Assembly (NCBI GenBank): GCA_028715505.1
Contig: JAQURS010000005.1
Coordinates: 1-64,000, forward strand
DNA length: 64,000 bases
From: Patescibacteria group bacterium
Lineage (GTDB): Bacteria; Patescibacteriota; Patescibacteriia; 2-12-FULL-60-25
Reading direction: 5' to 3'
Shown here: in pieces, positions 60,723-60,976 of the stretch
Position numbering within the stretch: position 1 is the first letter of the stretch
How the letters are laid out: each line of letters opens with the position of its first letter
The notes under the pieces: model-generated
What the model was told of the DNA's origin: nothing
What the model saw: the letters and a program-made list of their open reading frames with translations, nothing else
The model's database searches: none
Translations under genes and position numbers: made by a program

Positions 60723-60756
60723 CAAAAATGCCATCTTGCAAGCGGCTAAGATGGCA
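60723..60756 (-). terminator. Terminator of the candidate ncRNA
   Basis: ATGCCATCTT pairs perfectly with AAGATGGCAT; on the minus strand TTTTT follows. It lies directly upstream of the gyrB promoter. Confidence 0.8.
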
Positions 60757-60941
60757 TGAAGAGGATCGCGCCAGGGGAAATTTCTGGTTTCTTACGGACA
60801 ACTCAGTGAAAGGAGGTTAGCCATCCCCAGCGCGAAGTTTGATCCAGGCAGCCCTGGACGGGGCCTCTCTTGGTGGTTTTGGTGATTGGAGGAGGCGAGA
60901 TGTAGCATTGGCTGCTGCACGCCAACACCAAGAGAGCAGGT
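60723..60941 (-). ncRNA. Candidate small RNA with anti-Shine-Dalgarno loops
   Basis: On the minus strand a promoter (60976-60947) and a terminator (60756-60723) frame about 218 nt with no convincing ORF. The predicted RNA has CTCTCTTGGTG/CACCAAGAGAG (11 bp), CCAGG/CCTGG, and CGCGC-GGGGA/TCCCC-GCGCG helices. CCTCCTTTC (60816-60808) and CCTCCTCC (60895-60888) lie in putative loops; the first equals the 16S 3' tail sequence that pairs with Shine-Dalgarno sites. A 10-codon ORF (from ATG near 60826) is possible but weak. Confidence 0.5.
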
Positions 60942-60946
60942 CAACC

Positions 60947-60976
60947 ATAATAAGCGCAGAATCCGGATTCTGTCAA
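60947..60976 (-). promoter_or_regulatory. Minus-strand promoter of the candidate ncRNA
   Basis: On the minus strand TTGACA (60976-60971), an 18-nt spacer and TATTAT (60952-60947). Confidence 0.65.

Follow-up and report, generated by a model that had tools for sequence, protein, structure and literature searches.

A predicted small RNA with two anti-Shine-Dalgarno segments, one within a near-copy of the 16S rRNA 3' end, upstream of gyrB in a Patescibacteria genome

The DNA analysed here (the window; a stretch of 64,000 nucleotides) belongs to a genome of an uncultured Patescibacteria species (1.07 Mb in 28 contigs, 97% complete), and the closest named relatives that we located are MAGs of 'Patescibacteria group bacterium' and Candidatus Uhrbacteria. 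All genome-wide scans described below covered 1.05 of the 1.07 Mb, read as separate stretches. In the window, gyrB on the minus strand and a conserved gene on the plus strand diverge from a gap of 302 bp. The divergent gene is found in 40 of 41 family genomes, its -10 box lies about 8 nt ahead of its ATG, and a Pfam search with its product gave no family match. Between the two genes we predict a small RNA gene with the following features (window coordinates):

58666-60699, minus strand: gyrB, with its ATG at 60699, near-leaderless
60713-60741, minus strand: gyrB promoter TTGCAA-17-TACAAT, predicted start a few nt 5' of the ATG
60723-60757, minus strand: intrinsic terminator and T tract, with a perfect 10-bp stem at 60728-60757
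60723-60941, minus strand: predicted RNA of about 218 nt (nt 1 = 60941), from the promoter-to-terminator span, ORF length and fold
60767-60835, minus strand: hairpin P3 (GCGCUGGGG...CCCCUGGCGC), from the fold; contains the 16S-like segment
60808-60831, minus strand: segment like the 16S 3' end, GCTGGGGATGGCTAACCTCCTTTC, RNA nt 111-134, 21/24 against the genome's own 16S
60816-60808, minus strand: anti-Shine-Dalgarno (anti-SD) segment 2, CCUCCUUUC, inside the 16S-like segment
60842-60859, minus strand: hairpin P2 (GUCCAGG/CCUGGAU), from the fold
60865-60936, minus strand: hairpin P1, an 11-bp perfect inverted repeat CTCTCTTGGTG/CACCAAGAGAG with 50 nt between the arms, also seen in the fold; contains anti-SD segment 1
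60888-60896, minus strand: anti-SD segment 1, GCCUCCUCC, with UCCUCC open by pairing probabilities
60947-60976, minus strand: sigma-70-like promoter TTGACA-18-TATTAT, 11/12 consensus match
60988-61880, plus strand: conserved divergent gene, leaderless-like, with its -10 box at 60988-60993 and its coding region at 61002-61880

A preliminary description of this locus had proposed that a minus-strand promoter and a perfect 10-bp terminator enclose about 218 nt without a good open reading frame, and this is borne out: the promoter agrees with the consensus at 11 of 12 positions, the terminator consists of the stem ATGCCATCTT/AAGATGGCAT with a 10-nt loop and the tail TTTTTGTTGTT, and the longest same-strand ORF within the RNA span encodes only 50 amino acids, with a TTG start. 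The RNA is predicted to fold into P1, P2, P3 and the terminator with a free energy of -78.1 kcal/mol (z = -3.98), and none of 200 shuffled sequences was equally stable. The same description had placed both anti-SD motifs in loops, which is correct in part. UCCUCC of segment 1 and UUUC of segment 2 are open, but GCC of segment 1 is paired and CCUCC of segment 2 lies in a weak helix, where its positions are mostly 20-45% unpaired. Compared with all 9-mers of the RNA, the two segments rank at the 82nd and 85th percentile of openness.

Such an arrangement is seldom formed by chance. We scanned intergenic DNA for promoters matching at least 11 of 12 positions with a terminator stem of 10 pairs or more no further than 330 nt downstream, and obtained five units, including the one described here, in the real sequence and 1, 0, 0, 0 and 0 in five dinucleotide shuffles. 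A similar scan recovers many of the tRNA genes of the genome, which are real RNA genes. Another promoter-terminator unit (L111 9254-9434, minus strand; 11/12 promoter, 10-bp stem) comprises about 185 nt, is folded, contains CTCTCCTCCC, and was assigned to no Rfam family. Overall, the anatomy of the locus gives good support to the prediction of an independent non-coding transcript that has two anti-SD segments.

We did not find homologues of this RNA. BLAST of the DNA against 57 relatives returned only the query itself, and so did a single-sequence covariance model run over the family. Among 381 genomes of the class, the only further hit was a match of 21 nt in G155, which falls within what seems to be a protein-coding gene and is regarded as accidental. 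A pattern search of viral contigs and BLAST against phages and plasmids gave no match, and comparison with the Rfam library, up to E = 10, gave no relevant match to the window RNA. A SAM riboswitch was found elsewhere in the window, at 43746-43884 (RF00162, 52.6 bits), an example of this element in a Patescibacteria genome. The congeners G002, G004, G001 and G006 possess a different reading frame at this place, between gyrB and the divergent gene. In G002 (L062 224-817) this frame encodes a histidine phosphatase (PF00300), and those of G004, G001 and G006 were recognised by reading alone. Judged from these comparisons, the RNA is new or fast-evolving, since a homologue is absent in the sets searched.

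The most distinctive feature of the predicted RNA is its likeness to 16S rRNA. As the preliminary description had stated, it contains a sequence identical to the 16S tail. This sequence, CCTCCTTTC, is exactly the 3' tail of the genome's own 16S rRNA, whose gene is located on a different contig (C17; L149). The likeness extends past the anti-SD tail: GCTGGGGATGGCTAACCTCCTTTC is identical at 21 of 24 positions to the 16S 3' end GCTGTGGATGGATCACCTCCTTTC, as present in congeners and in the own genome. The ungapped score against the 16S tail is 18, while 600 dinucleotide shuffles of the RNA average 7.7 and reach at most 13. For the 405 CCTCCT sites of the genome, we compared the preceding 15 nt with the 16S sequence: 12 positions agree in the RNA, and no more than 9 at any other site outside 16S. 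Moreover, when the 19-nt 16S tail was searched with at most 2 mismatches in 41 family genomes, each of them contained 0 or 1 site, except for the present genome with 2, the second being the RNA. A family-wide search with GGNTAACCTCCTTTC gave one other match, which is the reverse complement of a Shine-Dalgarno (SD) sequence before a gene in G017.

On the start signals of Patescibacteria, as on their small RNAs, our literature searches turned up hardly anything. Counted from the ATG in this genome, positions -9 to -12 are richest in SD motifs, and positions -12 to -15 in -10 boxes. By stricter rules, 113 starts are of the SD type, 93 have a leaderless-type promoter, 3 have both and 614 are undecided. 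The earlier supposition that core mRNAs are leaderless and orphan mRNAs SD-led is therefore right with regard to the existence of two nearly exclusive start classes, but a clean division of these into core and orphan genes is not supported: a Pfam family was found for 8 of 20 SD genes and 13 of 20 leaderless genes in random samples (Fisher p = 0.20), and the SD genes include those for Cys-tRNA synthetase, RNase J, MurB and iPGM. Since SD and leaderless starts hardly overlap, an RNA directed against SD sequences would by its nature touch only one group of genes.

Based on this, we tentatively propose that 60941-60723 (minus strand) is an independent small RNA gene whose product acts in trans on SD-led mRNAs and spares leaderless ones, the most economical and the likeliest of the readings considered, although we would not yet call it probable. 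Three hairpins and a terminator would present the two anti-SD segments, one of them inside the 24 nt that nearly copy the 16S 3' end. The RNA might then pair with the SD region of SD-led mRNAs, whereby SD pairing could open the weak helix around CCUCC in P3, and the duplex would block binding of the 30S subunit and lead to repression. The mRNAs of gyrB and the divergent gene, like other leaderless mRNAs, would offer no site and be spared. The predicted pairing of the RNA with many start regions is strong. The sequence flanking segment 2 does not appear to be tuned to the own start regions, as its pairing with them is no better than that of shuffled flanks. A single specific target is therefore not apparent, and broad action fits better. 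The proposal is also weakened by the lack of a homologue in the relatives searched, by the other reading frame in G002, G004, G001 and G006, and by the partial pairing of CCUCC in segment 2.

It is also conceivable, although we regard it as rather unlikely, that a real stand-alone structured RNA is produced here which has a job independent of SD pairing, for instance protein binding or a 6S-like role, and that its C-rich segments are incidental. The anatomy supports a transcript regardless of what its loops do, and since 6S RNA (RF00013) was detected in none of nine genus genomes, an unrecognised housekeeping RNA is imaginable. Furthermore, the non-coding DNA contains a fair number of anti-SD 7-mers: CCTCCT[CT] occurs at 81 sites in about 149 kb (both strands), many of them antisense to SD sites. 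However, this amounts to an expectation of about 0.06 per RNA of such length, and the window RNA has two. Two anti-SD segments within 218 nt in combination with a 21/24 match to 16S are hard to obtain by accident, and a housekeeping RNA would be expected in the congeners, where it was not found.

The extent of the 16S likeness could point to another role, namely that of a ribosomal decoy, which would either bind the 30S platform or a factor by imitating the 16S 3' end, or pair with the 16S 5' end. Its action would then be on ribosome assembly or initiation instead of single mRNAs. The likeness includes the 3' strand of helix 45, which is not needed for SD pairing. In addition, RNA nt 93-106 (60849-60836), just upstream of the 16S-like segment, are complementary to the 16S 5' end at 13 of 14 positions. 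This complementarity is only suggestive, because it is weakly significant (7 of 600 shuffles equalled it) and falls partly within a hairpin. The RNA also lacks the 5' strand and the GGAA loop of helix 45. Era recognises GAUCA of the 16S tail, and exactly this sequence is altered to GCUAA in the RNA. We therefore consider a decoy improbable.

The position of the RNA suggests a further alternative, in which it would be the 5' leader of gyrB and its last hairpin the terminator of an attenuator or riboswitch. It lies on the same strand, and its terminator ends only about 23 nt ahead of the gyrB ATG. Nevertheless, gyrB keeps a -10 box at the usual place, with 13 nt between it and the ATG, and the layout of this promoter matches that of congeners which do not possess the RNA (TATAATTTCCCCGCAATCTATG in G002 and G004). 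There is no match to an Rfam element, no alternative antiterminator came to light, and the relatives do not have a leader of such kind. The RNA is thus probably not a gyrB leader, since a promoter-like site for gyrB itself, conserved in place in congeners, lies further downstream, and we give this alternative little credit. The -35 box of gyrB (TTGCAA) sits within the terminator hairpin of the RNA (window 60713-60757), so that termination of the RNA and initiation at gyrB would share the same DNA and may compete for it. Upstream of gyrB in G007, a T-box was suspected by eye and was discarded, as no Rfam match was found. Finally, the locus could be what is left of a decayed rrn operon, or other junk in which a promoter and a terminator arose by accident. 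A short, species-specific 16S-like stretch would agree with this, but such an origin is hardly to be expected, because the strong promoter, terminator and fold would be surprising in such a remnant and the likeness ends after 24 nt; neither the ITS nor the upstream part of 16S aligns significantly better than shuffled sequences, which makes a long rrn duplication unlikely.

Coming back to the anti-SD small RNA that we favor, two other loci deserve mention. In the own genome (L116 5619-5945; contig C1, about 65619-65945), a tRNA-Ser(CGA) gene is followed by a structured trailer of 237 nt (5709-5945; z = -4.73) that contains CCUCCUCCC twice and has a terminator. The gene after it starts at 6004 and has the SD sequence AAAGGAGGT. 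Matches of this locus in relatives are confined to the tRNA part, and the trailer has no relevant match in the Rfam library up to E = 1. The window RNA and the trailer have GCCTCCTCC(C)AATCAC in common, which occurs nowhere else in 41 genomes. In G006 (L065, contig C8; from the gyrB start at 48662 to the next gene), a different putative short RNA precedes gyrB directly. It carries CAUCCUCCUCCUCACG in a hairpin loop (CCUCCUCCU loop) and ends with a strong terminator. Together, these two putative RNAs suggest that anti-SD loops are employed repeatedly.

At its broadest, the idea would be that a small RNA copying the 16S 3' end serves as a global competitor for SD sites and shifts the reduced Patescibacteria cell toward leaderless mRNAs, possibly together with the tRNA-linked CCUCCUCCC RNA. 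We put this forward as a quite doubtful extension. If real, the RNA would be of interest as a case of anti-SD riboregulation in a lineage whose genes divide into SD and leaderless starts, as a simple means by which one class of mRNAs could be turned down, and as an RNA that imitates the 16S tail past the anti-SD itself.

How does the predicted RNA compare with known molecules? With the 16S rRNA 3' end it shares 21 of 24 nt, including the whole anti-SD tail, but it differs from it by the lack of a complete helix 45, of GAUCA and of an rrn context. Yfr1 of cyanobacteria and the LhrC/RsaE RNAs with their UCCC loops present short, open, C-rich loops that are thought to pair with SD sequences, and they are conserved across species. 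The window RNA is similar to them with regard to its open C-rich segment, but the Rfam comparison linked it to none of them, and no homologue was found in the sets searched. As far as features of trans-acting anti-SD small RNAs are concerned, it has a promoter of its own, a Rho-independent terminator, no ORF, and a partially accessible anti-SD segment that matches the own 16S tail.

The closest parallel is offered by the alpha-r14/cuckoo RNAs of alphaproteobacteria, such as NfeR1 of Sinorhizobium and CcsR of Rhodobacter, whose three hairpins carry CCUCCUCCC in unpaired stretches and for which many mRNA targets are predicted (PMC10746234). Several hairpins, unpaired anti-SD motifs of the type CCUCCUCC(C) and multiple predicted targets are common to both, and the L116 trailer even carries the exact CCUCCUCCC twice, like the cuckoo motif. 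In contrast, the window RNA belongs to another phylum, has no Rfam match, and contains CCUCCUCC-AA (with UCCUCC open) and CCUCCUUUC (partly open) instead of CCUCCUCCC; one identical motif in every hairpin is missing, and no homologue was found in the genomes of its family and class that were searched. Its extended copy of the 16S tail is not described for the cuckoo RNAs in the literature consulted. Without claiming membership or homology, we conclude that the predicted anatomy of the window RNA resembles that of the alpha-r14/cuckoo small RNAs.
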